From Deferrisoma camini S3R1 (GTDB lineage Bacteria; Desulfobacterota; Deferrisomatia; Deferrisomatales; Deferrisomataceae): DNA of 64,000 nt. Below are positions 9,726-64,000 of this stretch, piece after piece (the first letter of the stretch is position 1; each line of letters begins with the position of its first letter). The position numbers and the translations under genes are program-made. A model generated the notes under the pieces. That model made no database searches. It was given only the letters and a program-made list of their open reading frames with translations, and was not told the DNA's origin. Where the stretch lies: assembly GCF_000526155.1 (NCBI RefSeq), contig NZ_JAFN01000001.1, positions 2,629,014 to 2,693,013 on the forward strand, in the 5' to 3' direction.

Positions 9726-9859
9726 TTCGGAATCCAGAATTCGGAAGTCAGAAGTCGGCACCTGAACAGAGGCGCCGGGGAGAGGGTTTCGCGCGATGAG
9801 GGCTTTTGACTGATTCCTGTCCGCTGATTTCTGTTTTCTGGATTGGAGACCGACGACCG

Positions 9860-10324: not shown

Positions 10325-10354
10325 CCCCCGGGTCCGGGATCACGAGGGGTTTGG

Positions 10355-10422
10355 CCGCCAAGCCGCCCAGCGGGCCGAAGGCCCAAGACCGCGGATCGTA
10401 GACCGCAGACTGGAGACCGTTT
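10355..10422 (+). repeat. Intergenic repeat, copy A
   Basis: A roughly 65-bp stretch with the core CGCCCAGCGGGCCGAAGGCC, then several GACCG words, between arsC and acr3. A diverged copy in the same orientation lies at 18948-19010, before the reductase operon. The short GACCG/GACGACCG words also occur at 9848-9860 before arsC. Confidence 0.6.
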
Positions 10423-10443
10423 TTGTTGGGAGGAGGAGTAGAC

Positions 10444-11514: not shown

Positions 11515-11587
11515 ACGGAGAAGATGCAGTCCCCGAAGGGTGAGGCCGTCAAAAGCGACCCGTTCGACGGACGAGGGAGAGGCTTTC

Positions 11588-11968
11588 ATGGCCAAAACGC
11601 TCTACGTCTACGATCCGCCGCTGTGCTGCCCCACCGGCGTGTGCGGCCCGTCGGCCGATCCGGTGCTGGCCCGGTTCGCGGCTAACCTCCGGTGGCTCGA
11701 GCAGCAGGGGGTGCAGGTGGTGCGGAAGAACCTGGCCCAGGAACCCCAAGCGTTCGCGGCCGACCCGCGGGTGGCCGAGGTGCTCCGGACCGAGGGAACC
11801 GAGGGCCTGCCCCTCGTGCTCCTGGCCGAGCGCGAGGTGAGCCGCGGGCGCTATCCCGACCGCCGGGCGCTGGCCGAGGCCCTGGGCCTCGACCCGGCCG
11901 AGGCGGGCCCGGTGCTCGAGATGGCCGGCACCGGAGGCTGCGACCCCACCACCGGCTGCTGTGGGTAG
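11588..11968 (+). CDS. arsD: Arsenite metallochaperone ArsD
   Basis: 126 aa. It has an N-terminal 'DPPLCCPTGVCGP', in which the vicinal CC pair and third Cys form the As(III)-transfer site, and a C-terminal CC pair (CDPTTGCCG). It hands arsenite to ArsA, whose start codon lies within the last codons of arsD. It may also act as a weak repressor, as known for the family. Confidence 0.93.
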   Translation: MAKTLYVYDPPLCCPTGVCGPSADPVLARFAANLRWLEQQGVQVVRKNLAQEPQAFAADPRVAEVLRTEGTEGLPLVLLAEREVSRGRYPDRRALAEALGLDPAEAGPVLEMAGTGGCDPTTGCCG

Positions 11969-17429: not shown

Positions 17430-17432
17430 CCG

Positions 17433-18794
17433 GTGGAACCCCGAATCCTCCTGGTGGAGGACGACCCCCTGTACGCCGGGATGCTCTTCGAGGCACTGAC
17501 CCAGGCGGGCTACAAGGTCGAGCACGCCGACACCGTGGCCTCGGCCGTGGCCTGCCTGGAGCTGGAGTCGTTCGCTGTGGCGATCCTGGACGTGCGGCTG
17601 CCCGACGGCGACGGGCTCGACCTCCTCCGAACCCTGCTCGAGCTCCAGCCCGGGTGCTCGGCCCTGGTGATGACCGGCCACGCTTCGGTGGAGTCGGCCG
17701 TGGATGCCATGAAGATCGGGGCGGCAGACTACCTGCCCAAACCGTTCCCCACCGAGGTCATCCTCCTGAAGCTGAAACGCCTGCTCCGGGCCCGGCGGCT
17801 GGAAGAGGAGCTCGAGGGCCTCCGAGCGCGGGCGTCCGACACGCGGTTCGTGGGCCAGAGCCCCAGGGTGCGCCGCCTGCTGAGCACCGTTCGATCGGTG
17901 GCGCCCAAGAACGCCAACGTGCTGATCCAGGGGGAGAGCGGCACCGGCAAGGAGCTCATCGCCGAGATGCTCCACCGCCTGAGCCCCCGGGCGGAGGGAC
18001 CGTTCGTGCGGGTCAACTGCGGGGCCATCCCCGAAAGCCTCCTGGAGTCGGAGCTGTTCGGCCACGAGCGGGGCGCCTTCACCGGCGCCGACCGCCGGCG
18101 CAGGGGCATGCTCGAGCAGGCCCACGGCGGCACGTTGTTCCTGGACGAGGTGGGCGAGATCCCGCCGGCCATGCAGGTAAAGCTCTTAAGGGCCCTCCAG
18201 GAGCGCCGGATCCGACGGATCGGGGGGGAGAGCGAGATCGAGGTGGACTTCCGCCTCGTGGCCGCCACCAATCGAGACGTGGAGGATCTGGTCCGGGGGG
18301 GCGAGATGCGCGAGGACTTCTACTTTCGGATCGCCGTGATTCCCCTGGAAGTGCCCCCCCTGCGGGACCGGCCGGGGGACATCCCCCTCCTGGCCCAGCA
18401 CTTCGTCGCGAGGCTCAGCCGCATTCATGGGACCGAGCCCGTGCGTCTGAGCCCCGAAGCGCTGGATCTCCTGGCCGAGTACCCGTGGCCCGGCAACGTA
18501 CGGGAGCTGGAGAACGTGATCGAGCGGCTGCAGGTGCTCACCCCCGGCGACACGATCACCCCCCGCCATCTTCCCCCCGAGGTGCGCCGGGTGCGGCCCG
18601 CAACGGGCACGGTGTACGAAGTGGTGTCCACCCGGCTCACCCTGCGGGAGGCGGTGCATCGGTTCGAGCGCCGCTTCATCGAGCAGGTGCTGGCCGAGGA
18701 GGGAGGCAACCGCACCGCGGCCGCGGCCCGGCTCGGGATCTCCCGCAAGAATCTCTGGGAGAAGCTGGGGGGTGGGAGCGTTACCGGTAGGTAA
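17433..18794 (+). CDS. Sigma-54-dependent response regulator (NtrC type)
   Basis: 453 aa, GTG start. It has a receiver with Asp in 'AILDVRLPDGDGLDLLRTLL', an AAA+ domain with Walker A GESGTGKE, the sigma-54 contact loop GAFTGA and '[20 protein letters not shown]', then a Fis-type helix-turn-helix 'GGNRTAAAARLGISRKNLWE'. The 3' end runs into the first of two GTTACC-N4-GGTAAC dyads. The nearest sigma-54 promoter lies downstream, before the reductase genes. Confidence 0.94.
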   Translation: MEPRILLVEDDPLYAGMLFEALTQAGYKVEHADTVASAVACLELESFAVAILDVRLPDGDGLDLLRTLLELQPGCSALVMTGHASVESAVDAMKIGAADYLPKPFPTEVILLKLKRLLRARRLEEELEGLRARASDTRFVGQSPRVRRLLSTVRSVAPKNANVLIQGESGTGKELIAEMLHRLSPRAEGPFVRVNCGAIPESLLESELFGHERGAFTGADRRRRGMLEQAHGGTLFLDEVGEIPPAMQVKLLRALQERRIRRIGGESEIEVDFRLVAATNRDVEDLVRGGEMREDFYFRIAVIPLEVPPLRDRPGDIPLLAQHFVARLSRIHGTEPVRLSPEALDLLAEYPWPGNVRELENVIERLQVLTPGDTITPRHLPPEVRRVRPATGTVYEVVSTRLTLREAVHRFERRFIEQVLAEEGGNRTAAAARLGISRKNLWEKLGGGSVTGR

Positions 18795-18797
18795 CGC
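18778..18797. promoter_or_regulatory. Dyad operator 1 (GCGTTACC-N4-GGTAACGC)
   Basis: Perfect 8-bp inverted repeat with a 4-bp spacer, overlapping the last codons of the regulator gene. It shares the core GTTACC-N4-GGTAAC with site 2, 71 bp away centre to centre. It lies about 232 bp upstream of the sigma-54 promoter, a usual distance for enhancer sites. Binding by the adjacent regulator is inferred. Confidence 0.7.
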
Positions 18798-18850
18798 CTG
18801 GGGGCCTCGTTTCTCCTCTGCCGACAGGGCTCTCGTTCCCCTCCGCAACT

Positions 18851-18866
18851 GTTACCTCCCGGTAAC
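18851..18866. promoter_or_regulatory. Dyad operator 2 (GTTACC-N4-GGTAAC)
   Basis: Perfect 6-bp inverted repeat with a 4-bp spacer (TCCC), with the same arms as operator 1. It lies about 155-170 bp upstream of the predicted -24/-12 promoter at 19019-19034. Confidence 0.7.
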
Positions 18867-18947
18867 GCCCCACCCCGGACATGGCCGCGTCCGGCGCTCC
18901 GCCAGCCCCCCCGCCCCCGGGCCTTGGCGCGGCTCGAGAGCCGCTCG

Positions 18948-19010
18948 GCCGCCCAGTCGCCCAGCGGGCCGAGGCCCCAGACCGAAGACCGTTGACCGAC
19001 GACCGAAGTC
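18948..19010 (+). repeat. Intergenic repeat, copy B
   Basis: Diverged copy of the 10355-10422 element, sharing CGCCCAGCGGGCCGA and a run of GACCG words. It lies between operator 2 and the sigma-54 promoter, so it forms the spacer across which the enhancer would loop. Confidence 0.55.
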
Positions 19011-19018
19011 ACATTGGT

Positions 19019-19034
19019 CGGCATTGCCCTTGCA
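19019..19034 (+). promoter_or_regulatory. Sigma-54 (-24/-12) promoter of the reductase operon
   Basis: CGGCATTGCCCTTGCA fits TGGCACGN4TTGCA with the required 10 bp between GG (19020-19021) and GC (19032-19033). The transcription start would fall near 19045, about 84 bp before the iron-sulfur subunit start. The first-base C and the T/T after GGCA are the main departures from consensus. Confidence 0.65.
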
Positions 19035-19127
19035 GAGCAATCCGGCCGGAGTAGGGTTCCATCGGCCGCTCGATCGGGGACGGCCTTTCCTCACTTGCGC
19101 CCGGCGGAGAGCCGGCAGGAGGTGGTC

Positions 19128-19871
19128 ATGGCGGACATGGCGTTGCTCGAACAGATGCGGCAGGACGTCCTGCGGGCCCTGAAAAAGCCGCCGGAGGAGA
19201 GGCGGTGGGCCATGATCGTGGACATTCGAAAGTGCGTGGGGTGTCACGCGTGCACAGTGGCGTGCAAGTCGGAGAACAAGACCCCCCCCGACGTGGAGTA
19301 CCGCATCGTGCGCGAAGCGGAGGACGGGGCGTACCCCAACGTGCAGCACTACTTCATGCCGGTGCTGTGCATGCAGTGCGAGAACCCGCCGTGCGTGAAG
19401 GCCTGCCGGGACGGCGCGATCTTCAAGCGGCCGGACGGCGTGGTGCAGGTGGACTACAGCCGGTGCAACGGGTGCTCGAAGCCCTCGGCCTGCCCCTACG
19501 GGGTGCTCCACAAGGACGACGGCCGGTACTACACGGAGGGCACCCCCCGGCTGGAGCCTTACGAGACGGCCCCCACCTTCGAGTACGGGGAGCGGCAGTC
19601 GAGGAAGAACGGGGCCGCTCCCATCGGACGGTGCCGGAAGTGCCACTACTGCCTCCACCGCCTGGAGGCCGGCATGCTTCCGGCGTGCGTGACCACCTGC
19701 ATCGGCCAGGCGAACTACTTCGGCGACCTGTCGGACCCGGACAGCGTGGTGGCGAAGGTGGCAGGGGGGCAGCACATCTACCTGTTCGGCACCTCGTACA
19801 AGACCGGCCCGACCACCCGCTACGTGAGCTGGGGGCCGGGCGAGGACACCTGCGGCGCGTGCCACGACTGA
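19128..19871 (+). CDS. Four-cluster ferredoxin subunit of molybdopterin reductase (DmsB/TtrB/ArrB class)
   Basis: 247 aa electron-transfer subunit. Four cysteine groups for [4Fe-4S] clusters are visible: CVGCHACTVAC, CMQCENPPCVKAC, CNGCSKPSACPYG, and CRKCHYC followed by CVTTC. ATG 19128 follows AGGAGGTGG. It has no signal peptide and would be co-exported with the Tat-targeted catalytic subunit 33 bp downstream. The B-before-A gene order is as in ttrBCA and srdBCA clusters, but the NrfD-like C subunit is missing. Confidence 0.9.
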   Translation: MADMALLEQMRQDVLRALKKPPEERRWAMIVDIRKCVGCHACTVACKSENKTPPDVEYRIVREAEDGAYPNVQHYFMPVLCMQCENPPCVKACRDGAIFKRPDGVVQVDYSRCNGCSKPSACPYGVLHKDDGRYYTEGTPRLEPYETAPTFEYGERQSRKNGAAPIGRCRKCHYCLHRLEAGMLPACVTTCIGQANYFGDLSDPDSVVAKVAGGQHIYLFGTSYKTGPTTRYVSWGPGEDTCGACHD

Positions 19872-19904
19872 CCGCGTCCTCTTTCGACCGAAAAGGAGTG
19901 AACC

Positions 19905-22900
19905 ATGGATCGGAAACAGATCGCGGAGAACGCCCAGGTGGTGGACGAGAAAGGCGTAAGCCGCCGGGGCTTCCTGAAGTGCGGTGCGTTCCTGGGTGGC
20001 TCGGCCATCCTGGCCTCGAAGCTGGGCTGGGCCGTGGACCTGGTGCGCCGGGCCGAGGCCGGCCAGCTCAAGCCCGGCGAGGAGCTGGAGCTGGCCCGGG
20101 CCGAAAACGTGCTCTACTCCGTGTGCCTGCAGTGCCACACGGCCTGTACGATCCAGGGCCGGATCCTGGACGGGGTGCTCGTGAAGATCGGCGGGAACCC
20201 GTACAGCCCCATGAACCTGCTGCCCCAGCTTCCCTACGCGACGAGCCCTTTCGACGCGGCCCGGGTCGAGGCGCGGCTGTGCCCCAAGGGCCAGGCCGGA
20301 ATCCAGTCCCTTTATGATCCCTACCGCATCGTCAAGGTGCTCAAGCGGGCCGGGAAGCGCGGGGAGAACAAGTGGCGGGTCATCCCGTTCCACCAGGCCG
20401 TGGACGAGATCGTCAACGGCGGCTACCTGTTCTCCGACGTTCCCGGCGAGGAGCGCCGGTACGTGAAGGGGTTGAGGGAGACCTACGCCCTGCGCGACGC
20501 CAAGCTGGCCAAGGCCATGGCTGCCGACGCCAAGGCCGTGGCGAAGAAGAAGATGACCGTTGCGGAGTTCAAAAAGAGGTACGCCGACCACCTGGACCTC
20601 CTGATCGACCCGGATCACCCGGACCTGGGCCCGAAGAACAACCGGTTCGTGTTCATGGCCGGCCGGATCGAGCACGGCCGCAAGGAGTTCGCGAAGCGCT
20701 GGCTCAAGGACAGCTTCGGCAGTGTGAACTGGTACGAGCACACCACGATCTGCGAGCAGAGCCACCACATCGCCTACAACGAGATGACGAGGGCGTGGAA
20801 GAAGGGGAAATGGGGCAAGGGCAAGCACCACATGAAGCCCGACGCCTTGAACTCCCGGTACATCCTGTTCTTCGGCACGGGTGCGTTCGAGGCGAACTTT
20901 GGTCCCACGAACATGGCCGAGAAGATCACCGAGGGCATCGCCTCGGGCCGGCTCAAGATCGCGGTGGCCGACCCGCGGTTCTCCAAGACCGCGGCCAAGG
21001 CGTCGAAGTGGCTGCCCCTCAAACCCGGCACCGACGCGGCCCTGGCGTTCGGCATGATCCGCTGGATCCTCGACAGCAAGCGCTACGACGAGCGCTACCT
21101 GCGCTCCGCCAACAAGGCCGCCGCCCACGAGGCCGGCGAGACCACCTGGACCAACGCCACCTGGCTGGTGAAGATCGGAGAGGACGGCCCCGGGGCCCTG
21201 CTGCGGGCCGACGAGGCCGGCGTAGGCGACAAGGACGAGTTCGTGGTGGCGGTGGACGGCAAGCTGGCCGCCGTCGCCCCCAACAGCGGCAAGGACCCCG
21301 TGGTGGGCGACCTCTACCACGAGGGCGAGGTGAACGGCGTGAGGGTCAAGAGCGTGTTCCAGCTCCTGACCGAGCGGGCGAGCGCGCGCTCCGTGGCCGA
21401 GTGGGCCGAGGAGTGCGGGCTCCCGGCGTCGGACGTGGAGGCCGTGGCCAAGGAGTTCACCTCCTACGGCAAGCAGGCCGTGGCCGAGCTCTACCGCGGG
21501 CCCGTGCAGCACACCAACGGCTACTACAACGGCCAGGCCATCATCACCCTGAACCTGCTGGTGGGGAACCCCGACTGGAAGGGCGGGCTCCAGAAGGGCG
21601 GGGGCCACTGGCACGAGGACGGCAGCAAGAAGGACCAGCCGTTCAACCTGAAGAAGCTCTATGCTTCCAAGCTCAAGAGCTTCGGGGTCACCTTGACCCG
21701 GGAGAAGCACCGGTACGAGGAGTCCACCCTGTTCGAGGGCTATCCGGCCAAGCGCTGCTGGTACCCGTTCACGGGGAACGTGTACCAGGAGATCATCCCC
21801 TCGGCCGGCATGGGGTACCCCTACTCGATCGATGCTCTGTTCCTCCACAAGGGAACCCCTGCGTTCTCCGCACCGGCGGGCGACAAGAACATCCAGATCC
21901 TCCAGGACCTGGAGAGGGTGCCCCTGCTGTTCGCGTGCGACATCGTGATCGGCGAGACCTCCATGTACGCCGACTACCTGTTCCCCGACACAGCGATCTG
22001 GGAGCGCTGGGGAACCCCCCACATCACGCCCGACGTGGTGACCGCGGTGAGCAAGGTGCGCCAGCCCCTGGTGAACCCGCTGACCGAAGAGGTTTACGTG
22101 TACGGGGAGCGCCAGCACGTGGGCATGGAAGCCATCATGCTGGCGATCGCCGAGCGGCTGGATCTGCCGAACTTCGGCGAGGACGCTTTCGGCCCCGGCC
22201 AGCCCCTGAAGCGCGTGGACGACTGGTTCGTCCGGATGGTGGCCAACCTGGCCAAGGGCGACAAGCCCGGCACCGAGGTGCCGGATGCCTCGGCCGAGGA
22301 GATCGAGCTCTTCTACAAGGCCCGCCGGCATCTTCCGGCCCACGTGTTCGACCCGGACCGGTGGAAGGCGATCGTCGGAGAGAAGCTGTGGCCCAAGGTG
22401 GTGTACGTGCTGAACCGGGGCGGCCGGTTCGAGGACTTCGAGCGTGCCTACAAGGGCGACAAGGTGCGCCACCAGTACAAGGGCCAGTTCAACCTGTACG
22501 CCGAACACGTCGCGCTCGCCAAGCACCCGGGAACCGGCAAGCGGTTCTCGGGGCTTCCGGTGTACGAGCCGGTCAAGGACTTCCACGGCCGCCCCGTGGA
22601 CGACCCCGGCTATCCGCTGCACCTCATCACCTACAAGGAGATCGTCGGCGGTCAGTCCCGCACGCCGGGCAACTACTGGAGCCAGGGGCTGATGCTGCCC
22701 GAGAACTACATCCTCATGAACTCCCGGGACGCCGAGGCCTTGGGGCTCAAGAACGGGGATCGCGCCCGGATCGTGTCGGTCTCCAACTCCGACGGTGTCT
22801 GGAACCTGCGAAACGGCCAAAAGGTGCCGATCGCGGGCAAGGTCAAGGTGGCCGAGGGCATCCGGCCGGGCGTGGTGGCGGTGAGCTGGCACTCGGGCCA

Positions 22901-23090
22901 CTGGGCGTACGGGGCTTCGGACCAGATGGTGGACGGGCAGACGGTTCGGGGCGACCGCCGCCGGGCCAAGGGCCTGTGCCCCAACGCGGCCATGCGGGTC
23001 GACCCGGTCCTGGGCGACATGTGCCTCACCGACCCGATCGGCGGCTCCTCGTCGTTCTACGACACCAAGGTCAAAGTGATCCCAGCATGA
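19905..23090 (+). CDS. Tat-exported molybdopterin oxyanion reductase, catalytic subunit (TtrA/SrdA/ArrA-like)
   Basis: 1061 aa. Tat motif SRRGFLK at 19-25. The [4Fe-4S] ligands are C74, C77, C81 and C126 (CX2CX3CX44C). C283 in 'HTTICEQSHHIAYNEMT' is the likely Mo ligand. The C-terminal MGD-binding domain begins near 'PLHLITYKEIVGGQSRTPGN'. The family is the DMSO-reductase superfamily, arsenate/tetrathionate/selenate branch. The length fits TtrA/SrdA (about 1020) better than ArrA (about 850). Next to ars genes and an AioXSR-like regulator set, an arsenic, selenium or sulfur oxyanion is likely, but the substrate is not decided. No membrane anchor or TorD chaperone is encoded nearby. Confidence 0.88.
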   Translation: MDRKQIAENAQVVDEKGVSRRGFLKCGAFLGGSAILASKLGWAVDLVRRAEAGQLKPGEELELARAENVLYSVCLQCHTACTIQGRILDGVLVKIGGNPYSPMNLLPQLPYATSPFDAARVEARLCPKGQAGIQSLYDPYRIVKVLKRAGKRGENKWRVIPFHQAVDEIVNGGYLFSDVPGEERRYVKGLRETYALRDAKLAKAMAADAKAVAKKKMTVAEFKKRYADHLDLLIDPDHPDLGPKNNRFVFMAGRIEHGRKEFAKRWLKDSFGSVNWYEHTTICEQSHHIAYNEMTRAWKKGKWGKGKHHMKPDALNSRYILFFGTGAFEANFGPTNMAEKITEGIASGRLKIAVADPRFSKTAAKASKWLPLKPGTDAALAFGMIRWILDSKRYDERYLRSANKAAAHEAGETTWTNATWLVKIGEDGPGALLRADEAGVGDKDEFVVAVDGKLAAVAPNSGKDPVVGDLYHEGEVNGVRVKSVFQLLTERASARSVAEWAEECGLPASDVEAVAKEFTSYGKQAVAELYRGPVQHTNGYYNGQAIITLNLLVGNPDWKGGLQKGGGHWHEDGSKKDQPFNLKKLYASKLKSFGVTLTREKHRYEESTLFEGYPAKRCWYPFTGNVYQEIIPSAGMGYPYSIDALFLHKGTPAFSAPAGDKNIQILQDLERVPLLFACDIVIGETSMYADYLFPDTAIWERWGTPHITPDVVTAVSKVRQPLVNPLTEEVYVYGERQHVGMEAIMLAIAERLDLPNFGEDAFGPGQPLKRVDDWFVRMVANLAKGDKPGTEVPDASAEEIELFYKARRHLPAHVFDPDRWKAIVGEKLWPKVVYVLNRGGRFEDFERAYKGDKVRHQYKGQFNLYAEHVALAKHPGTGKRFSGLPVYEPVKDFHGRPVDDPGYPLHLITYKEIVGGQSRTPGNYWSQGLMLPENYILMNSRDAEALGLKNGDRARIVSVSNSDGVWNLRNGQKVPIAGKVKVAEGIRPGVVAVSWHSGHWAYGASDQMVDGQTVRGDRRRAKGLCPNAAMRVDPVLGDMCLTDPIGGSSSFYDTKVKVIPA

Positions 23091-48551: not shown

Positions 48552-49008
48552 CTACCAGGGGCAGTCGTCCCCCCACGCCATCGTACCCCGGGCCATCTGC
48601 CGCGGCCCGGGTCCCCAGCCGTGGCCGTCGTGCCACCGGCACGCCCATGGCCCGGGCATCCACGCGCCAGCCACCCCGGCCCCTTCCAGCTCGGCCCACG
48701 CCTTGGCCCGCAGCCCGGCGTACTCCTTCTCCAGGTCGTAGAGCTCCTGCCGCAGCTCCTCGGCCCGGTCCGCCTCGCCCGCGGCCAGGGCCGTGTCCAG
48801 GTCCCGGGCCGTGGTGCGCATCTTGGCCGCCAGGGTCGTGAACTCATCCGCGTACTTCTGGTGGATCTCCGTGGCCTGGGCCTGCACCGCCGGGTCGGTC
48901 GGCGCCCAGGCGGGGTTGCAGCCCCAACAGGCCTCGGCCTTTCCGGCCAGGGCCGTTCCGGCGAGGGCCACGGTCAGGCCTCCGGCGATCACAGGTGCTT
49001 CGTTTCAT
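48552..49008 (-). pseudogene. ZraP-like periplasmic metal-stress protein, copy 1 (5' frameshift)
   Basis: From GTG 48992 an open frame encodes the end of a signal peptide, ACWGCNPAWAP, a helical hairpin ('EFTTLAAKMRTTARDLDTAL', 'RAEELRQELYDLEKEYAGLR') and a His/Trp/Gly-rich tail. This is a Spy/ZraP/CnrX-like layout. The expected ATG at 49008, with GAGGTG before it, is out of frame by one base relative to the body, so the signal peptide is broken. A paralogue lies at 52134-52751. Confidence 0.65.
48621..48989. repeat. Direct repeat copy 1 (about 370 bp)
   Basis: Aligns without gaps to 52362-52730 (constant offset 3741) with about 20 mismatches counted by eye, about 95% identity. Covers most of the ZraP-like gene. 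Confidence 0.9.
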
Positions 49009-52133: not shown

Positions 52134-52751
52134 TCAGGGGGCCTCGCCCACCCGTTGGGCGCCCCGCTGTCGAGCATACCCCACCCCCCGCGCGGGGCAA
52201 CCGCGGAGGCGGCTGCGGCCGGTGCGAAACGGAAGCGCCCCCTTCCCCGGCAGCAGGGAACGGGGTGCTTCCGGCCGGCCGGGTCTACCAGCGGTAGCCC
52301 GGGACGTCGCAGCCCCAGGGGCCGCCCATCCCCCGGGCCATCTGCCGCGGCCCATGCCCCGGTGGCCGTCGTGCCACCGGCAGGCCCACGGCCCGGGCAT
52401 CCACGCGCCAGCCACCCCGGCCCTTTCCAGCTCGGCCCACGCCTTGGCCCGCAGCCCGGCGTACTCCTTCTCCAGGTCGTAGAGCTCCTGCCGCAGCTCC
52501 TCGGCCCGGTCCGCCTGGCCCGCGGCCAGGGCCTCGTCCAGGTCCCGGGCCGTGGTGCGCATCTTGGCCGCCAGGGTCGTGAACTCATCCGCGTACTTCT
52601 GGCGGATCTCCACGGCCTGGGCCTGAACCGCCGGGTCGGTCGGCGCCCAGGCGGGGTTGCAGCCCCAACAGGCCTCGGCCTTTCCGGCCAGGGCTGCACC
52701 GGCCAGGGTCACCACCAGGGCTCCCGCGATCCACAGACGTTTCGTGCTCAT
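52134..52751 (-). CDS. ZraP-like periplasmic metal-stress protein, copy 2 (3' end possibly shifted)
   Basis: ATG 52751 opens MSTKRLWIAGALVVTLAG, a good signal peptide, then the same ACWGCNPAWAP and helical-hairpin body as copy 1. After WHDGH a 4-base deficit relative to copy 1 changes frame: the open frame runs to 52134 with a long basic tail, whereas the other frame gives MARGMGGPWGCDVPGYRW and stops at about 52307, much like copy 1's ending. Third gene of the sigma-54 operon from 53281. It probably acts as a zinc-binding periplasmic chaperone. Confidence 0.75.
   Translation of the reverse strand: MSTKRLWIAGALVVTLAGAALAGKAEACWGCNPAWAPTDPAVQAQAVEIRQKYADEFTTLAAKMRTTARDLDEALAAGQADRAEELRQELYDLEKEYAGLRAKAWAELERAGVAGAWMPGPWACRWHDGHRGMGRGRWPGGWAAPGAATSRATAGRPGRPEAPRSLLPGKGALPFRTGRSRLRGCPARGVGYARQRGAQRVGEAP
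52362..52730. repeat. Direct repeat copy 2 (about 370 bp)
   Basis: Partner of 48621-48989. Together they bracket the lipoprotein gene and could recombine to delete about 3.7 kb. Confidence 0.9.
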
Positions 52752-53432: not shown

Positions 53433-54811
53433 TCAGGAGCGGCCGTACTCCTTGAGCTTGTTGATCAGGGTCTGACGGGAGATGCCGAGGATCTGGGCGG
53501 CCCGGGTGCGGTTGCCCCCGGTCTGCTCCAACGTTCGCAGGATCAGCTCGCGCTCGGCGTCCTTGAGGGTGCGGGGGCCCGCCGGGATGGGGGCCTGGGG
53601 CGCTGCGGCCGCCGCCCCTTGCAAAGCGGGGGGGAGTTCCTGGGGGGTGATGCGCTCCCCCAGGCACAGGATCACGGCCCGCTCCACGGCGTTTTGGAGC
53701 TCGCGCACGTTGCCCGGCCAGTCGTGGCGCACCAGGAGGTCCATGGCCTCGGGGGTGAACCCGGCCACGGGCTTGCGGTTCTTCTCGGCGTAGATCCGCA
53801 GGAAGTGCTCGGCCAGGAGGGGGATATCCTCGGGCCGGTCCCTGAGCGGCGGCAGGTGCACCGGCACCACGCTCAACCGGTAGTACAGGTCCTGGCGAAA
53901 GGCGCCCTCGGCCACCATGGCCTCCAGGTCCCGGTGGGTGGCCGCGATCACCCGCACGTCTACACGCAGGGTGCGGGTTCCCCCCAGCCGCTCGAACTCC
54001 CCCTCCTGGATCACCCGGAGCACCTTGGCCTGGGTGGCCGGGCTCATGTCGCCGATCTCGTCCAGGAACAGGGTGCCGCCGTGGGCCAGCTCGAACCGGC
54101 CCTTCCTCTGGGCGGTGGCGCCGGTGAACGCGCCGCGCTCGTGGCCGAACAGCTCGCTCTCCAGCAGGTTCTCGTGGAGGGCGGCGCAGTTCACCTTGAC
54201 GAACGGCTTGTCCCGGCGGGGGCTGTTCTGGTGGATGGCGTTGGCCACCAGCTCCTTGCCCGTGCCCGACTCGCCCGTGATCAGCACGGTGGCGTCCGAA
54301 GGGGCCACCAGGGCCAGGGTCTCGAACAGCTCCCGCATGGGCCGGCTGCGGCCGATGATGCTCGAAAAGTCGAACCGCTCGCCCAGCCGCTCCCGAAGCA
54401 GCCGGATCTCCTCCTCCAGCCGGCGAAACTCCAGGGCCTTGTCCAGCACCCGGGAGAGATCGGCCGCGTCCACCGGCTTGGTCAGGTAGTCGAACGCGCC
54501 CTTCTTCATGGCGGCCACGGCCGTGTCCACCGAGGCGTAGGCCGTCAGAACGATCACCGGCAGATCCGGCCGGACCGCCTTGATCGCCTCCAGGGCCTCG
54601 ATGCCACCCACCCGGGGCATCCGCAGATCCAGGAGCACCGCGTCCACCGGGTGGGTGCGCACCGCGTCCACCCCGGCGTCGCCGTCGTCGGCCTCAAGGG
54701 TCTCGTAGCCGGCTCCGGCCAGGAGTGCCCGCAGCATGGTGCGGTGACCCCGGTCGTCGTCCACCACGAGGATCCGGGGCTTGGTCCCGGCAGGGGCGGC
54801 CTCGCTTCCCA

Positions 54812-54812
<1 letters not shown>
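53433..54812 (-). CDS. Sigma-54-dependent response regulator (ZraR-like)
   Basis: 459 aa. Receiver with Asp in '[20 protein letters not shown]', AAA+ with GESGTGKE and GAFTGA, '[20 protein letters not shown]', and a Fis-type helix-turn-helix '[20 protein letters not shown]'. Its ATG shares a base with the stop of the metal ATPase, so metal export and stress response are co-expressed. No kinase is adjacent; the kinase at 62468-64000 is a possible partner. Confidence 0.94.
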
Positions 54813-57094
<2,282 letters not shown>

Positions 57095-57096
57095 GG

Positions 57097-57441
57097 TCAT
57101 CCCTCCTTCACGTGGCGCAGCCCCTCGGCGAACAGGGTACGCACGTGGTCGTCGTCGAGCCGGTAGTACACGAGCCTGCCCTCCCGCCGGGGTCGCACCA
57201 GGCGGTGGGCCCGGAGGATCCGGAGCTGGTGGCTCACGGCGCTCTGGCTCACGTCGAACAACTCGGCCAGGTCGCACACGCATAGCTCCCGCACCGAAAG
57301 GGCCAGGAGAATCCGCACCCGGGTCGGGTCGCCCAGCACTTTGAACGTCTCGGCCAGGGCCTCCACCGGCGCCCCGCCGACGGCCTTCCGGGCCTCCGCC
57401 ACCGCCTCGGGGTGGACCAGGGTCTCGCTGCAGGTCTCCAT
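57097..57441 (-). CDS. CadC/SmtB-type ArsR-family metal repressor
   Basis: 114 aa. N-terminal METCSE plus 'VRELCVCDLAELFDVSQSAV' give the Cys set of CadC-type Cd/Pb/Zn sensors (N-terminal Cys and CVC in the DNA-binding region). ATG 57441. The longer frame is not used because the operator dyad lies upstream of it. It controls the ATPase-regulator operon. Confidence 0.9.
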   Translation of the reverse strand: METCSETLVHPEAVAEARKAVGGAPVEALAETFKVLGDPTRVRILLALSVRELCVCDLAELFDVSQSAVSHQLRILRAHRLVRPRREGRLVYYRLDDDHVRTLFAEGLRHVKEG

Positions 57442-57526: not shown

Positions 57527-58366
57527 CTACGCCACCTGCCTTGCCGGCTCCACCGGGGCAGGGGGGCGCTCCCCCTCCGGGGAGAGGACCGTGGTGACCG
57601 AGATCGCCTCACAGGCGGTGCAGTCCAGGCACCGGATGCACTGGCCCGTGTTGGCGCCCTCGTACACCTTGATCTCCATGGGACACACCTCCAAGCACTT
57701 GTCGCAGTGGGTGCACTTGGCCGGCTCCCAACGCAGGCGCACCAGGCTCCACCGGTTGAACAGGCCGTACAAGGCGCCCAGGGGGCAGGTGGTCTGGCAG
57801 AACGGTCGCTTGGCGATCACGGACGACACGGTGAAAAAGATCAGGATCGAGATCTTGATCCAGAACAGATCGGTGATCATCCGGCGGATGTCTTCGCTGA
57901 TGGTGACCCAGGGGATCCCCCCCGTGAGCGTGCCCATCGGGCACAGCTTGGAAAACCAGTTCTCCGAGGTGATCCACGGAATCACGAAGACCAGCATGAC
58001 CAGCACGCTGTACCGGAACGGGCGCAGGTACTTGGGGATCGAGATCTTCACCGAGGGGAGCTTGTACAGCATCTCCTGGAAGTACCCGAACGGGCACAAC
58101 GTGCCGCACGGCATCCGCCCCACGAGCCCGCCGACCGCCCCAAGGAACCCGAGCACGTAGTACGGGATCGCCCGGATCACCATGAAGTGTTGGAGCGCCC
58201 CGACCGGACAGGAAAACACGGCCGAAGGGCAGGCATAGCAGTTGAGCATGGGCACGCAAAACCCCTTGGCCGCGCCCTGGTAGACCGCCTTCACCCAATA
58301 CCCCTTGATCCAGCCGTTGGCCCCCAGGCTCGCGCCCAGCTGGAAGTACCGCCGCATCCTCATCAT
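57527..58366 (-). CDS. NapH/YccM-like membrane ferredoxin
   Basis: About 279 aa. Several transmembrane helices, two CPxG-type pairs ('VGRMPCGTLCPFGYFQ', 'AKRPFCQTTCPLGALYGLFN') as in NosR/NapH, and two C-terminal [4Fe-4S] groups CTHCDKCLEVCP and CIRCLDCTACE. ATG 58366 follows GGAGG. It probably passes quinol electrons across the membrane to an unknown periplasmic acceptor. Last gene of the minus-strand operon. Confidence 0.88.
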   Translation of the reverse strand: MMRMRRYFQLGASLGANGWIKGYWVKAVYQGAAKGFCVPMLNCYACPSAVFSCPVGALQHFMVIRAIPYYVLGFLGAVGGLVGRMPCGTLCPFGYFQEMLYKLPSVKISIPKYLRPFRYSVLVMLVFVIPWITSENWFSKLCPMGTLTGGIPWVTISEDIRRMITDLFWIKISILIFFTVSSVIAKRPFCQTTCPLGALYGLFNRWSLVRLRWEPAKCTHCDKCLEVCPMEIKVYEGANTGQCIRCLDCTACEAISVTTVLSPEGERPPAPVEPARQVA

Positions 58367-58390
58367 GCCATCCTCCACAGCAAGCCTTGC

Positions 58391-58900
58391 TCAACCGACC
58401 CACTCGCCCCCACCCTTCTTTGACACCGGAACCAGAAGCACCGGCACGGGGGAGCGCAGAACCACCTTGTGCGCCGTGGTTCCCAGAACCATCTCTCCCA
58501 CGGCGGTGTGGCCGTGGGAGCCCATCACGATGAGGTCCGCCCCGCAGCTGTGCGCCTCCTCCAGCACCACCTCTGCGGGTTGACCCTCGACCACCAGGGC
58601 GACCCAGTCCGAATCCCCCTCGGGCTGTCTCTTCGTCTCTTCCCGGCAGACCCGGTCCATGTGCGCTCGGATCTGAGCGGCCGCCTGGTTTCGGAGCCGC
58701 TGCCGGATCTCTCCCATCTGCTCCGCGGAGAGGTGAATGCTCAGCAGGGCCTTCGCAGAAGGCCCCAACGGACGAACGGCGTGCACCACCACCAGCCGGG
58801 CCCCGAAGCTCTCGGCAAGGCCCGCGGCCTGGCGGAACACCGTGTCGGTACCGGCCTCAAGGTCCACAGCGCAAAGGATGGTCCGAACGGTGGGCAGCAT
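58391..58900 (-). CDS. Universal stress protein (UspA family)
   Basis: 169 aa. 'TVRTILCAVDLEAGTDTVFR' start and the ATP-binding 'ADLIVMGSHGHTAVGEMVLG...' region (GxxGHxxxGxxxxGT) are typical. It lies between the PhnD-like gene and the NapH-like ferredoxin, 24-31 bp from each. Confidence 0.92.
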   Translation of the reverse strand: MLPTVRTILCAVDLEAGTDTVFRQAAGLAESFGARLVVVHAVRPLGPSAKALLSIHLSAEQMGEIRQRLRNQAAAQIRAHMDRVCREETKRQPEGDSDWVALVVEGQPAEVVLEEAHSCGADLIVMGSHGHTAVGEMVLGTTAHKVVLRSPVPVLLVPVSKKGGGEWVG

Positions 58901-58931
58901 CTCGTTCCTCCTGATCTGCAGGACGTGGGAG

Positions 58932-59849
58932 TCAATACTCTTCGTAAGGGGGCATCTTCGCCAGCCGGGCCCAGCGACGCAGCTCGTCGTAGTCGACGTC
59001 CCTGGCCTCGTCGTACCCCCGGATCTGGGCTCGTTTGAGCACGAGGAGGGTCTCGTCGCCCACCCGCGCCGTGGTCTGCTCGTCGAGGGCCAGGAGGGCC
59101 TTCCGAACGCGGTCGGCCCAACGCCGGGGGACCTCTTTCGAAGCACCGAAGGTGCAGTAGGGCGCCAGGCCGCTCTGCCCAAGGATGACGAAGTCGTCGG
59201 GGGCGATCCTTCCGTCGGCGGCCATCTCCTCCAGGTCGATCAGGGGGGCGGTTCCCGCGTCGAAAGCGCCGTACAGCACGGAGTAGATGATCTTCTGGTG
59301 CTTCCAGCTCCCCCGGGGGATCGCGTAGTACCCCAGGTCCTTCTCCGGGTCCACGCCGGCCTCCAGCATCAAGGCGTACTGGGCGAGAAAACCGAACGGC
59401 GCCCACTGGGGGCCGAACACGAGCCGTTTGCCCCGGAGATCATTCAGGCTCCGGAGCCCGGAGTCCTTTCGGGCGATGATCACCCCCCGGGTCTTTGCGC
59501 CGAACGAGCCCCTCCGCTCCACAGCGATCGGCCGCACGCCGTACCGCTCCCGCAAGGTGATGTAGAGAAGGGAGTTCGTGTGGGTGAACTCGAACTCCCC
59601 CCGCGCGAACGCCTCTTCCACGTCGTAGGTGTTGAGGTACACGGGCTCGAACCGGGCGCCCGTGGCCTCCGAGAGGTATGCGGTCAGCGGGGCGAACCGC
59701 TCTCGGGTCTCCTCCACCGAGTTACAGATCATGTAACCGATCCGGAAGGTCTGGGAGGCGGAGCGCCCACCCACGGCGAGCAACGCCAGGCCGGCGAGAG
59801 CCCCCACAGCGGCCAGGAACACGACGGGACGGCGAGAGTCTCCCTTCAC
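58932..59849 (-). CDS. PhnD-like periplasmic binding protein
   Basis: 305 aa, signal segment at 8-30. 'FRIGYMICNSVEETRERFAP', 'SLNDLRGKRLVFGPQWAPFG' and 'DAGTAPLIDLEEM' fit the phosphonate-type binding fold. Two Cys (in MICNS and APYCTFG) are possible ligands. No ABC transporter is nearby; its neighbours are beta-helix proteins and a sensor kinase further upstream, so sensing is more likely than uptake. It overlaps the upstream gene by 4 bp. Confidence 0.85.
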   Translation of the reverse strand: MKGDSRRPVVFLAAVGALAGLALLAVGGRSASQTFRIGYMICNSVEETRERFAPLTAYLSEATGARFEPVYLNTYDVEEAFARGEFEFTHTNSLLYITLRERYGVRPIAVERRGSFGAKTRGVIIARKDSGLRSLNDLRGKRLVFGPQWAPFGFLAQYALMLEAGVDPEKDLGYYAIPRGSWKHQKIIYSVLYGAFDAGTAPLIDLEEMAADGRIAPDDFVILGQSGLAPYCTFGASKEVPRRWADRVRKALLALDEQTTARVGDETLLVLKRAQIRGYDEARDVDYDELRRWARLAKMPPYEEY

Positions 59850-60718
59850 GGCTGCGGCTTCTCCTTGGATTCCAGCAAGGGCCGGGGTTCGACAAGCACC
59901 CTCCCCACCCCCTCTGAGTCTGCTCCGTCGAAGATGCGCTCCGGAATGGTCGCCGCTTCGGCCGCGGCCCAGCGATTGCCCGTGGCGTCCACGTCGGTGG
60001 TCTGGAGCTCACCCAGCTTGATGTCGTACTCCCGATCGTCGAAGAAATTTCCCTTGATTACCGGTCGGTTCACCGCCTCCCGGAAAAAGATCCCGGTGAG
60101 GTTTCCCTTGAACACGTTGTCTCGAAACACGGGAGAGGCCTTCCAGAGCCGCGCTCCGATCCGGTTGTGTTCGAACCGGTTCCGCCGGAGGGTCACGGGC
60201 CCCCCTTTGAACCGGACGCCGCCGTAGTTGCCGCGGAACACACATCCCTCCACGAGCGCAGGCGTGTTGTGGAGGTGAAGCCCCCACGGCCCCCTGGTGA
60301 ACACCGCGTACCGGAACTCAGCGGAACGGGCCTCGCGTACGTCGATCATGTTCTCGAGCTCGTTCTCGCGCTCTCGAACCGAGATGAACCATACGGGCCG
60401 ATCCGAGGTGCCCTCTACCCGGATACGCCCCTCCACCAGGATCCACGCCGCACCCGGTTCGATCTCCGCCGGTTCCGGCAGGTCGAAGAAGACGCGGGTG
60501 CCAGGTCGCACGATCAGGGTGGCCCCAGCCGGAACCACCACCGGCCCGGTGATCCGGAGGGCCCCCGACCAGACGAGCTGCCCGGCCGAGAGGGTCTGGG
60601 CCCCCACGGCCCGCGCCTCGGGGGGCACGGCCGGGCCCTCCCAGGCCCAGCCTCCTGTCGCCCCGATCAGGACGAGGAGCAGGACCCCCGGCGCCCAGCA
60701 GACGCCCCCCCGTCTCAC
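59846..60718 (-). CDS. Secreted right-handed beta-helix protein (NosD-like repeats)
   Basis: 290 aa from GTG 60718 (overlap with the previous gene). Signal peptide to about 25, then 'VVPAGATLIVRPGTRVFFDL' and stacked coils such as 'ALVEGCVFRGNYGGVRFKGG' and 'SPVFRDNVFKGNLTGIFFRE'. Periplasmic beta-helix of the NosD/pectate-lyase-like kind. It shares architecture with its upstream neighbour. Confidence 0.8.
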   Translation of the reverse strand: MRRGGVCWAPGVLLLVLIGATGGWAWEGPAVPPEARAVGAQTLSAGQLVWSGALRITGPVVVPAGATLIVRPGTRVFFDLPEPAEIEPGAAWILVEGRIRVEGTSDRPVWFISVRERENELENMIDVREARSAEFRYAVFTRGPWGLHLHNTPALVEGCVFRGNYGGVRFKGGPVTLRRNRFEHNRIGARLWKASPVFRDNVFKGNLTGIFFREAVNRPVIKGNFFDDREYDIKLGELQTTDVDATGNRWAAAEAATIPERIFDGADSEGVGRVLVEPRPLLESKEKPQP

Positions 60719-61974
60719 GGCGTGCCCTCCCGGGGCAGGGTCCGCACCCTCAGCACCTGCATCTCGCCGCCGGCTAGTGTGACCACCACCCCGCCGCCCT
60801 CTGCAGGGGCGATGCCTGTGACCGCGTCGGGGCCGAACTCCCAAGCGTCGCGCTCGAACCCGGTCTGGGCGTCCAACAGGTAAAGCCTTCCGGCCCGGGT
60901 AGCCACGGCCACGAGACCGGGGCCGGCCGCCACGGGCCCGGCCACCACGGGGGCTCCGAGGCTCCGGCTCCAGAGCTCCCGGCCGGGCTCGCCCGCCATC
61001 GCCTGGATCCCATCCGACGGAGCCACCCGCAACCGCACGGCGTCGAGAACCAAATCGGCGCGCTGGCCGGTCGCTGCAGGCGGGTCGCCTCCGGGGTTCT
61101 CGGGCACGGCGGCAGCGGGCTCCCACCAGGGCCACTGCCTCGGCCCGGCCAGGCCGGCCTCGCCCGGCGCCTCCACCAGCTGGGCGTCCGGGCGATCCGC
61201 GGCAGAGCCCACCTCGCACGGCGGGGATCCACCCCAGTCGCTGGCCTCCACCTGGACCGTGCCGGTGAAAAAGTCGCCCAGCCGGAAGGGGTGATCGTTG
61301 GCTCGGAACGCGTTGCTCCGAAACACCGACCCCCGATCGCCTTCGAACAGAAACAGGCCGTTTCGGTTGTGATGGAACCGGTTGAGCTCCACCCGGTTCT
61401 GGCTCAGGCGCTGGTTCAGGCCTTTGCCGGGGTGGCCGTAGAAGAGTGAGTGCTCCACCGTGAGCACGTCCTGGCCCAGGCGGGTGCCGTCGATGTTTCG
61501 CCGCAGCACCGAGTCGGAGATCCGCCCCCGGGAGAAGTGCACGTGAAGCCCCCGGCTGCTTCCCTCCACCACGGTGTAGCGCAGGTCGATCTCCCCGAAG
61601 TCCACCCGCACGGCCCCCCACAACCCCGGCTCGGCCGGCTGGGCGTCCGAGGTGAACACCACGGGGGCCTCGGCGGTACCCCGGGCGACCAGCGCCCCTT
61701 GAACCCTCAGGACGGCGTCTCCCCACCCGTCTCCGTCGTCGTCCCGGAACGCGAACCGGACCACGGTGCCGGGCTCGATCATCAGGCGGGTCCCCCGGGG
61801 AATGATCACGTCATCGGTCACCCTCACCTGGCCCTGCCACACCACCGTCTCTTCGGTGGGCAGGGATGGAGAGACGGCGCACCCGGTCACCAGGACCAAA
61901 AGGGCGGCCGCCAGAGAGAGGGCGGCTGGAGCAGCCGCTCCCCCGACAGATCTCGAGGCCGTCGTTGTCGACAT
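60715..61974 (-). CDS. Lipoprotein with beta-helix and PQQ-like propeller segment
   Basis: 419 aa. Lipobox VTGC at about 29-32. 'IIPRGTRLMIEPGTVVRFAF' and 'RGLHVHFSRGRISDSVLRRN' form a beta-helix. The last 90 residues (RLYLLDAQTGFERDAWEFGP, GGGVVVTLAGGEMQVLRVRT) look like blades of a PQQ-type propeller. Probably faces the periplasm together with the next gene's product. Confidence 0.8.
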   Translation of the reverse strand: MSTTTASRSVGGAAAPAALSLAAALLVLVTGCAVSPSLPTEETVVWQGQVRVTDDVIIPRGTRLMIEPGTVVRFAFRDDDGDGWGDAVLRVQGALVARGTAEAPVVFTSDAQPAEPGLWGAVRVDFGEIDLRYTVVEGSSRGLHVHFSRGRISDSVLRRNIDGTRLGQDVLTVEHSLFYGHPGKGLNQRLSQNRVELNRFHHNRNGLFLFEGDRGSVFRSNAFRANDHPFRLGDFFTGTVQVEASDWGGSPPCEVGSAADRPDAQLVEAPGEAGLAGPRQWPWWEPAAAVPENPGGDPPAATGQRADLVLDAVRLRVAPSDGIQAMAGEPGRELWSRSLGAPVVAGPVAAGPGLVAVATRAGRLYLLDAQTGFERDAWEFGPDAVTGIAPAEGGGVVVTLAGGEMQVLRVRTLPREGTP

Positions 61975-62027
61975 GGATTCTCCGGAGAGGTACGGATGTC
62001 ACGGCGCCACGGGGCGCAACACGGCGG

Positions 62028-62056
62028 GCGTCCGCGGAGGGTACCTCCGCGGACGC
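62028..62056. repeat. 13-bp perfect hairpin
   Basis: GCGTCCGCGGAGG-GTA-CCTCCGCGGACGC between the Cys-rich gene and the beta-helix lipoprotein. No T-tract. It may attenuate or stabilise mRNA. Confidence 0.7.
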
Positions 62057-62075
62057 AGAAGCGTCGTACCGACTC

Positions 62076-62414
62076 TTAGGAGATGGCTATGGGGATGGGT
62101 GGGAGGGGTCTAGCGAAGAGCACCGGAATCCCGCGGGACGAGGGCGGGGGAGCCGGGCGGGGGGCGAGAACAAGGGGAAGGGTCACCGAGATTCCCGGAA
62201 GGCCCGGCGCGCAACAGGAGCAGCTCGCAAAGGAGCACTCCCCCTTGGACTGCGCCTTCTCGGAAAACAGACACGTCCGGGCACACCCGGGGCGCACCGT
62301 CGGGACCTGGGCCGACCAGGCGCAGGTGGGGATCGTGGCCGCCTGCAGGGCAAACACGACCAGGACGAAGACCAAGGCCACGTGGGCCTGACAGGAATCT
62401 CGAAGCAGACGCAT
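62076..62414 (-). CDS. Small exported Cys-rich protein, unrecognised
   Basis: 112 aa. Hydrophobic signal (about 10-35), then 'CARTCLFSEKAQSKGECSFA' and SCSCCAPG, seven cysteines in about 25 residues, and a Pro-rich tail. First small gene after the sensor kinase. Weak ribosome-binding site, so moderate support only. Possible metal or redox role. Confidence 0.5.
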   Translation of the reverse strand: MRLLRDSCQAHVALVFVLVVFALQAATIPTCAWSAQVPTVRPGCARTCLFSEKAQSKGECSFASCSCCAPGLPGISVTLPLVLAPRPAPPPSSRGIPVLFARPLPPIPIAIS

Positions 62415-62467
62415 CCCGGCACCGGATTGAGTGTGCTTCTTACTTTAGACAGAGCCCCTATGCCCGG

Positions 62468-64000
62468 TCAAGGGAACGGCCGACCCCGGGTCCGCAGCCA
62501 TACCGTGACCCGGGTGCCCCGGCCTCGGATGCTCTCCACCTGAATCCGACCGCCGTGCTGCTCCACGATCTGGTGCACCACGGCCAGCCCAAGGCCCGTG
62601 CCCGTGGGCCGGGTGGTGTAGAAGGGGTCGAACATGTGCTCTCGCTCCTCCGGCGTGAGTCCCCGGCCGGTGTCGTCCACGGCCACGGCCGCCTCGTCCC
62701 CTTCCTCCCACGCCGCGACCGACACCTCTCCCCCCGGCGGGGTGGCAGCGAGCGCGTTCTGGACGAGGTTCAGAAGCACCTGGGTCAGCAGGTCTGGGTC
62801 GGCGCGCACCGTGAGCTCGGCGGGCACGTCCACTCGAAGCGCGATCCCGGCCTGGGCCGCCTCGGCCTCGGCCAGGGCTCGCACCCGCTCGACCACGGAT
62901 GCCACGCCCACGTCCCGGGGCTCCGGCTCCCGGGGCCGCGCGAACTGCAGGAGCGCCGAGATCAGCCGGTCGAGCCGATCGATCTCCTCCACCATGACGC
63001 GGGCGTACCCGGCCGATTGCTCGTCGTCCCCGCTGCGGGCCCCGAAGTACTGGGCGAACCCCCTCAGGGTGCCCAGGGGGTTTCGGATCTCGTGGGCCAG
63101 CCCCGCGGCCATCCGGCCCAAGGCGGCAAGTCGACGGGAGCGTTCGAGCTGCTCCTCCGCGGCCCGCAGCTCGCGTACGTCCCGGATCAGGAGCACCGTA
63201 CCCGCCCGCCGTCCATGACGATCGGTCAGGGGGGCCGCGCTCACCCGCACCGGCACCACGGCGCCGTCGGCGGCCCGGCACTCGGCCGGCCGCTCCGACA
63301 CGCCCTCCTCTGAGCCGATCCAGGTCTCCAGGGCCTCGCAGGCCCCGGAGCCCACGAGCTCACGGAGCGCCCGGCCTCGAGCCTCCTTCTCGCTGGTTCC
63401 GAACAGCTCTTCGGCCCGCCGGTTCAGGCCGACCACCCGCCCCTGGCGGTCCAGGGTGACCAGGGCGTCGGGAAGGCTCTGGATCACGTCCCGGGTGTGG
63501 CTCTCCAGGTCCGCCAGGGCCGCGCGCACCCCTCGGACCCGGTGGGAGAGGAGCACCAGGTACAGACCGGCCGCACCGGCCACCAGGAGCACGCCGCCCA
63601 GGATCAGGCCCTGGCGCAGGTCCTGGGCGCGGGCCTCGGCAAACTCCCGGGTGTGAAGCCCCACGAAGATCGCCTGCCGGCAGGCCGGCGCGTCGGCGAC
63701 GACCCGGCCCCGACCGGCCGGCCCCATGGAGCACCAGCGTTCCCAGCGCCGACGCATGGGCGCCGCCCCCTGGCCCGCCAGGGGCTCGAACGGCCGGGCC
63801 ACCTCGAAGATCTCCTCGCCGGACCGGCTGGACACGAGACGACTCACCGGGCCCGTGGCCTCCAGCACTTCCCGCACCCTCTGCAGGGGGGCCGGGCCGC
63901 CGTCGGGGAGGTCCCCGGCCGAGGCGACCACTCGACCCTGCTCGTCCACCAGCCACACGTAGGCCACCAAGGGGCTGCGGGCCGTCTCCTCCACGAGCAC
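62468..64000 (-). CDS. Membrane sensor histidine kinase with PAS domain (5' end outside window)
   Basis: 510 codons visible, start beyond 64000. Extracytoplasmic sensor part, a transmembrane helix ('LILGGVLLVAGAAGLYLVLL'), PAS ('DALVTLDRQGRVVGLNRRAE'), HisKA with 'AGLAHEIRNPLGTLRGFAQY' and HATPase with 'DDTGRGLTPEEREHMFDPFY' and 'GTGLGLAVVHQIVEQHGG'. NtrB/ZraS class. No regulator is adjacent inside the window; the orphan ZraR-like regulator at 53433 could be its partner. Confidence 0.92.
   Translation of the reverse strand: MLVEETARSPLVAYVWLVDEQGRVVASAGDLPDGGPAPLQRVREVLEATGPVSRLVSSRSGEEIFEVARPFEPLAGQGAAPMRRRWERWCSMGPAGRGRVVADAPACRQAIFVGLHTREFAEARAQDLRQGLILGGVLLVAGAAGLYLVLLSHRVRGVRAALADLESHTRDVIQSLPDALVTLDRQGRVVGLNRRAEELFGTSEKEARGRALRELVGSGACEALETWIGSEEGVSERPAECRAADGAVVPVRVSAAPLTDRHGRRAGTVLLIRDVRELRAAEEQLERSRRLAALGRMAAGLAHEIRNPLGTLRGFAQYFGARSGDDEQSAGYARVMVEEIDRLDRLISALLQFARPREPEPRDVGVASVVERVRALAEAEAAQAGIALRVDVPAELTVRADPDLLTQVLLNLVQNALAATPPGGEVSVAAWEEGDEAAVAVDDTGRGLTPEEREHMFDPFYTTRPTGTGLGLAVVHQIVEQHGGRIQVESIRGRGTRVTVWLRTRGRPFP

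Follow-up and report, generated by a model that had tools for sequence, protein, structure and literature searches.

A putative paralogous satellite of the GeoRSP gene kit in Deferrisoma camini S3R1

The operon at positions 57527-61974 of a 64,000-nt stretch of DNA (the window; 2,629,014-2,693,013 of the 4.24 Mb single-contig genome of Deferrisoma camini S3R1) encodes two beta-helix proteins (BH1 and BH2), a PhnD-like periplasmic binding protein, a universal stress protein (Usp) and a NapH-like membrane 4Fe-4S protein. Homology, gene linkage and trees indicate that it is very probably a paralogous satellite of the GeoRSP kit. GeoRSP was reportedly named in an in silico survey of radical SAM systems; a literature search returned no relevant papers naming it, and, as far as could be found, it is a named cell-envelope gene kit without a reported function or substrate. 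The fuller statement, i.e., a satellite of the GeoRSP kit with a periplasmic role in redox chemistry or ligand capture, is given a probability of roughly 0.5; its identity is well supported and its mechanism is inferred. That it is specifically a redox satellite whose PhnD-like protein takes a thiophilic ligand is a more tentative proposal, held at somewhat less than even odds. Below, G000 is the own genome, G001 its sister genome, and G003, G004 and G007 are other relatives.

The link to GeoRSP is seen in the distribution of genes over 148 relatives. The PhnD family (E <= 1e-40) occurs in 17 of these genomes and the GeoRSP radical SAM protein (E <= 1e-80) in 16, all 16 being common to both (Fisher p ~1.6e-20, a value that overstates independence because the genomes are related), and the pattern spans many families. 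Where a locus is long enough for the neighbourhood to be seen, the PhnD gene in most cases adjoins genes for a TPR protein, YedE, PqqD and the radical SAM enzyme. The cassette at locus L035 has the order NtrC regulator, EB_dh haem lipoprotein, carboxypeptidase-regulatory-like lipoprotein, HEAT lipoprotein, polyferredoxin, short binding protein, two beta-helix proteins, PhnD, TPR protein, YedE, PqqD, radical SAM, SPASM and cysteine desulfurase. The radical SAM protein of this cassette type is GeoRSP TIGR04303 (452 bits, above the NCBIfam cut-off), its PqqD and SPASM proteins have GeoRSP models as their best matches (TIGR04302, 92.9 bits vs a cut-off of 100; TIGR04304, 97 vs 300), and its YedE belongs above cut-off to the selenium-linked family TIGR04112. 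YedE has been tied to selenium use by comparative genomics (PMC5322559). Among 59 relatives scanned for BH1 homologues, 13 were positive, and 12 of these 13 carry the radical SAM gene (which is present in 14 of the 59). In tree and alignment, the window PhnD falls inside the cassette PhnD clade together with its invariant residues; BH2 is a paralogue of the GeoRSP-cassette BH2 (53% in the own genome), and BH1 is a paralogue of the BH1' protein of another locus of this genome (locus A, see below), with further BH1 paralogues in GeoRSP-carrying genomes. On sequence grounds, PhnD, BH1 and BH2 are thus duplicated copies of GeoRSP cassette parts. A preliminary description had regarded the genes as an unassigned and possibly new system for periplasmic electron transfer or sensing; a periplasmic redox or sensing role indeed fits, whereas novelty does not, since three of the proteins are paralogues of known cassette components.

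The satellite is also found outside the own genome. In the sister genome the whole operon is present in the same order, except that a FeoB gene has come in after NapH, and G004, which belongs to another family, holds a set (C23) in the order TlpA, PhnD, BH2, TlpA, two c554-like multihaem cytochromes, BH1, TlpA, a 73-aa membrane protein and NapH. The conserved neighbourhood of the beta-helix pair with PhnD-like and NapH-like genes, as expected from the preliminary description, is therefore borne out in both genomes. The FeoB gene (L026:12468-14399) lies on the opposite strand, between NapH and ArsR. Trees likewise set the satellite apart: its PhnD groups with those of G001 and G004:C23 (with G007), away from the core copies, and its NapH with those of G001, G003:C2 and G004:C23, away from the core NapH, which is encoded at 1.17 Mb within a cluster of ResB, CcsA-like, 13-haem cytochrome and TlpA genes. 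Usp accompanies the satellite only in the own genus, being present in G001 and not in the G004 satellite. Over the five genes from BH1 to NapH, the ratio of nonsynonymous to synonymous substitution rates (dN/dS) vs G001 is 0.11-0.33 (0.33 for BH1), indicating purifying selection, and it is for this reason that the gene set is not regarded as a chance assemblage. The same values bear on the idea of a decaying duplicate without a present role. The BH1 propeller is shortened relative to that of locus-A BH1', and cytochromes and TlpA proteins are missing from the locus, as decay would have it; however, all five frames are intact under this selection and the invariant PhnD residues are all kept, making decay very unlikely.

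The PhnD-like protein has a pocket that differs from that of phosphonate-binding proteins. Its predicted structure has a mean predicted local distance difference test (pLDDT) score of 91, and among known structures it comes closest to ArrX and PtxB, which tie at Z 28.1, and to HtxB, followed by AioX and PhnD. With the roles of the PhnD and AioX pocket residues taken from PMC5908839, the position of the Ser-Thr-Ser oxyanion motif is occupied by A150-P151-(F/S/T)152 in the satellite/cassette family (A150-P151-F152 in the window protein), and C42 and C232 are invariant in all 22 family members. C232 aligns with Asp205 of Escherichia coli PhnD (mature numbering), and H184 with PhnD His157 and AioX His192. 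Since the Ser-Thr-Ser motif is gone and two invariant cysteines are present, one of them at the Asp205 position, a thiophilic ligand seems more likely than a phosphonate. A cysteine-bearing pocket has a precedent in AioX, which binds arsenite via a cysteine (PMC5908839), although that cysteine is at another position than C42 or C232. The protein scores 73.7 bits against the PhnD equivalog TIGR03431 (cut-off 261.1), and ATP-binding cassette (ABC) partners of the phnC/phnE type are absent from the operon; a pair of genes for an ATPase and a permease of the ABC type, which read as ModB/TupB-like, is located at L006:10428-12112, beyond the kinase gene upstream of the operon and an oppositely oriented chemoreceptor gene.

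These features invite comparison with three-component sensors of the AioX-AioS-AioR or ArrX-ArrS-ArrR type, in which case the PhnD-like protein would bind an oxyanion in the periplasm and signal via the kinase to the NtrC-type regulator controlling the operon. In favour of this reading, the kinase gene is found just before the operon, a sigma-54-type regulator is encoded 4 kb downstream, and no structure matches better than ArrX (tied with PtxB). The orthologues of AioX are signalling proteins of the PhnD-like type that lack ABC partners, and AioR/ArxR are of the AtoC type (PMC5908839). Against this, the kinase adjoins the PhnD-like set only in G000 and G001 and is absent from the G004 satellite; the regulator groups with a ZraP/P1B/ArsR metal set, apart from the GeoRSP regulators; and AioX Cys106, Ser161 and Ser163 are replaced by N92, A150 and F152, so that His192 is the only one of these residues kept. 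In addition, the window holds a clearer receptor-kinase-regulator set at 15094-18794, and a sensor of this type is considered rather unlikely for the operon. In the region 15094-23090, genes for a PhnD-like protein, a histidine kinase and an AtoC-type regulator directly precede those for an Fe-S subunit and a TtrA-like molybdoenzyme (TtrA score of 488 bits, under the cut-off); as a receptor-kinase-regulator set serving a respiratory reductase, this region is clearer than the genes at 57527-64000.

For a satellite of the GeoRSP kit, the following mechanism may be envisaged. The NapH-like protein would draw electrons from membrane quinol, and its 4Fe-4S clusters would pass them on in the periplasm, the acceptors being multihaem cytochromes and TlpA-type redoxins whose genes lie elsewhere. 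This path is inferred because the cytochromes and TlpA proteins of the G004 satellite have own-genome orthologues, with 80% identity for the cytochrome orthologue at 4.018 Mb and 64% for that at 0.373 Mb, each near TlpA genes. The preliminary description had noted that a terminal reductase is lacking, which is correct at the locus; beyond it, the two multihaem c554-like cytochromes enclosed in the G004 set have these counterparts elsewhere in the genome. The two invariant cysteines of the PhnD-like protein would serve to capture a small thiophilic ligand, either a metal ion or a species of sulfur, selenium or arsenic, and the two beta-helix proteins could scaffold or relay this ligand at the membrane surface. 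For BH2, an AlphaFold2 (AF2) model shows repeated short strands (pLDDT 87); a fold search with it gave generic beta-helix matches only, NosD among them and none at E 0.001, and is uninformative, and a sequence search against the PDB gave no matches.

The satellite would then supply or support a GeoRSP-modified protein, for which the TPR protein of the cassettes is the candidate. TPR genes are located at L007:7976-8461, L035:10816-11355 and in other cassettes, and the homologues are 19-49% identical across families to the own-genome copy. In a tblastn search, the C-terminus was exactly G(G/S)CE in 22 of 23 TPR homologues, with exceptions at L036 and L051 (GGCG), while among 296 called genes across 14 loci this ending was found in three, all of the TPR family. 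Radical SAM enzymes guided by PqqD act on peptide substrates, for which reason the tail would be a natural target, and it is hypothesized to be that of GeoRSP. A more elaborate scheme, which is speculative and on balance improbable, can be drawn: the PqqD-guided radical SAM enzyme would modify the G(G/S)CE tail of a membrane-anchored TPR protein into a new redox or selenium/sulfur centre that would be fed and reduced in the periplasm by a PhnD-like carrier with two cysteines, together with beta-helix lipoproteins and polyferredoxins, with the window operon as a duplicated delivery arm. Overall, the operon has led to a wider kit that co-occurs almost without exception with GeoRSP, a system of metal-reducing bacteria, as well as to a possible substrate in which the C-terminus is strictly kept and to a receptor with pocket chemistry suggestive of ligands other than phosphonates.

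In the own genome, the kit is distributed over four loci. Locus A (5.6-13.9 kb; L126:5633-11601, L124:2581-4884) contains genes for a polyferredoxin, DUF362, an OpuAC-type protein, BH1' (a beta-helix lipoprotein whose propeller is complete), a carboxypeptidase-regulatory-like lipoprotein, an ArsP_1 permease, FmdE and an AAA ATPase. It is conserved in several Deferrisomatales-type genomes, and its OpuAC-type protein has a Cys directly after the signal peptide. Locus B is the window satellite with PhnD, BH1, BH2 and NapH. Locus C (L007, near 3.10 Mb) is the GeoRSP core and contains genes for a short binding protein, PhnD (69% relative to the copy at locus B), TPR, YedE, BH2, PqqD and the radical SAM enzyme. 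At locus D (2.26 Mb, L154), genes for EB_dh-like, carboxypeptidase-regulatory-like and HEAT proteins and for a polyferredoxin, named by likeness to those of L035, are accompanied by another beta-helix gene. The four loci may act together, because their counterparts form one cassette in L035-type genomes and genes of the locus-A and locus-C types are neighbours in L051.

Several observations weigh against this assignment. The satellite itself lacks the TIGR04303 radical SAM/SPASM protein, PqqD (TIGR04302), SPASM (TIGR04304) and YedE, so that its association with GeoRSP function is indirect. The full set of BH1, BH2, PhnD and NapH occurs in three genomes of two families only, and G003 has the satellite NapH but neither PhnD nor beta-helix genes beside it. 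At locus C, the radical SAM protein scores 394.4 bits vs a cut-off of 400, and a SPASM partner was looked for there and none was found. The G007 cassette is without a TPR gene, and the PhnD-like cysteine positions rest on alignments of ~20% identity.

The features of the region are listed in Table 1. Family matches confirm the kinase, beta-helix, PhnD-like, Usp and NapH-like genes as first called, and the gene overlaps reported then are real, BH1/BH2 and BH2/PhnD each being joined by a GTGA 4-nt overlap.

Table 1. Genes of the satellite operon and its surroundings, in window coordinates.
Feature	Position	Strand	Family match or remark
Sensor histidine kinase, ZraS/AtoS-like	62468..64000, past window end	-	Pfam HisKA, HATPase_c, PAS
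Leader/intergenic stretch with 112-codon 'Cys-rich' open reading frame (62076-62414)	61975..62467	-	Probably no protein gene
BH1, beta-helix lipoprotein with shortened PQQ/BamB-type propeller tail	60715..61974	-	Pfam NosD/PQQ_2; lipobox LVTGC
BH2, secreted beta-helix protein	59846..60718	-	NosD 35.1 bits vs 23.6 cut-off (Pfam)
PhnD-like periplasmic binding protein	58932..59849	-	PF12974, 170 bits
Universal stress protein (Usp)	58391..58900	-	Pfam Usp
NapH-like membrane 4Fe-4S protein	57527..58366	-	Fer4_5 above Pfam cut-off
ArsR/SmtB regulator	57097..57441	-	NF033788 above cut-off; neighbouring metal-response set
P1B-type metal ATPase (ZntA/CadA-like)	54812..57094	-	Sequence motifs; neighbouring metal-response set
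NtrC-type response regulator	53433..54812	-	Outside GeoRSP regulator clade (response regulator tree); common to G003 ZraP-response regulator-P1B-ArsR set

Upstream of BH1, the kinase (592 aa at full length, L006:6482-8260) scores under the cut-off for the ZraS and AtoS models. A gap of 494 bp separates it from BH1, and a promoter-like site (62471-62442), kept in the G001 alignment, sits exactly on the kinase stop; because of both, the kinase may lie outside the operon transcript and its co-transcription appears doubtful. It probably belongs to the neighbouring metal-response set. A sigma-54 promoter motif was not found 5' of BH1, the sole match being at 53296. The open reading frame at 62076-62414, previously taken for a Cys-rich peptide, did not hold up as a gene: its 21 substitutions vs G001 are split 7/7/7 over the codon positions, as opposed to 61% in position 3 for the real genes of the operon (Fisher p = 0.012), and searches of Pfam and NCBIfam gave no family match. 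Lacking a codon signature and being unlike the GGCE tail, it was also rejected as a modified-peptide precursor. The stretch 61975-62467 as a whole is matched only within the genus (91% to the sister genome) and is probably a leader region rather than a protein gene. A riboswitch was considered here and dismissed, as an Rfam search of the 494-bp leader gave no matches and the strongest hairpin is altered in the sister genome, despite strong predicted folding (z-score -3.5).

Downstream, the ArsR, P1B ATPase and regulator genes raise the possibility of a metal-resistance operon, in which a ZraSR-like system would regulate the P1B ATPase together with ZraP-like proteins and a module for envelope stress (Usp, NapH and beta-helix proteins). 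Such genes, including those for ZraP-like proteins, are contiguous with the operon in the window and in G001, and G003 has a ZraP-response regulator-P1B-ArsR-TlpA-NapH set devoid of PhnD and beta-helix genes. However, other loci link PhnD and beta-helix genes to GeoRSP genes instead of metal genes, and FeoB parts the two sets in G001, so that a metal-resistance operon is judged distinctly unlikely. The window regulator is the best own-genome match of the cassette regulator, and was for that reason considered as a GeoRSP regulator; the candidate was rejected, as it falls outside the clade of cassette regulators, which has full support. Because the tree places it with the regulator of the G003 metal set, the three downstream genes seem to be neighbours and not members of the GeoRSP satellite.

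Further genes were noted elsewhere in the window. Two near-identical ZraP-like small proteins (CWGCNPAW...) are encoded at 48552-48992 and 52134-52751, the latter without NCBIfam or Pfam matches at the thresholds used. Arsenic-resistance genes (ArsR, ArsC-like, Acr3, ArsD-like and ArsA) are located at 9384-13709, with Acr3 and ArsA above NCBIfam cut-offs. The row at 4801-9209 contains an ArsP_1-type permease (SaoE/SO_0444-like, under the cut-off), an FmdE-like protein, several thioredoxin-like proteins and a CcdA-like protein; the ArsP_1-FmdE adjacency is found again at locus A. Lastly, the segment 40001-42000, over a gene for a 1537-aa lipoprotein, has a G+C content of 0.525 vs 0.70 in its surroundings and is possibly of foreign origin.

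Among known systems, nos assemblies were named in the preliminary description, and the operon matches NosD and NosR/NapH in its types of beta-helix and membrane 4Fe-4S proteins. An accessory set for a nos-like or Nap-like reductase is nevertheless extremely unlikely: scores are far under the cut-offs of the NosD equivalog TIGR04247 (23.6 vs 300 bits) and the NapH subfamily TIGR02163 (63.5 vs 213 bits), NosF, NosY, NosL and NapA are not encoded nearby, and a search of the genome for NosZ (TIGR04246) gave no matches at E 0.001, on which ground a nos system was rejected. PhnD, PtxB and HtxB have their fold and PF12974 in common with the window protein, but the latter has A-P-(F/S/T) for Ser-Thr-Ser and Cys for Asp205, scores below the PhnD equivalog cut-off and belongs to an operon without transporter genes. 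AioX and ArrX are alike in their PtxB-type fold, their operon without ABC genes, a kinase nearby (in the own genome) and the histidine kept as H184, and differ in that the window PhnD has two other invariant cysteines and a kinase link that is not conserved. With GeoRSP, finally, the window set has its PhnD, BH1 and BH2 in common as paralogues of cassette genes, and the same genomes hold both; it differs in forming a locus of its own, with a distinct NapH type and a Usp.

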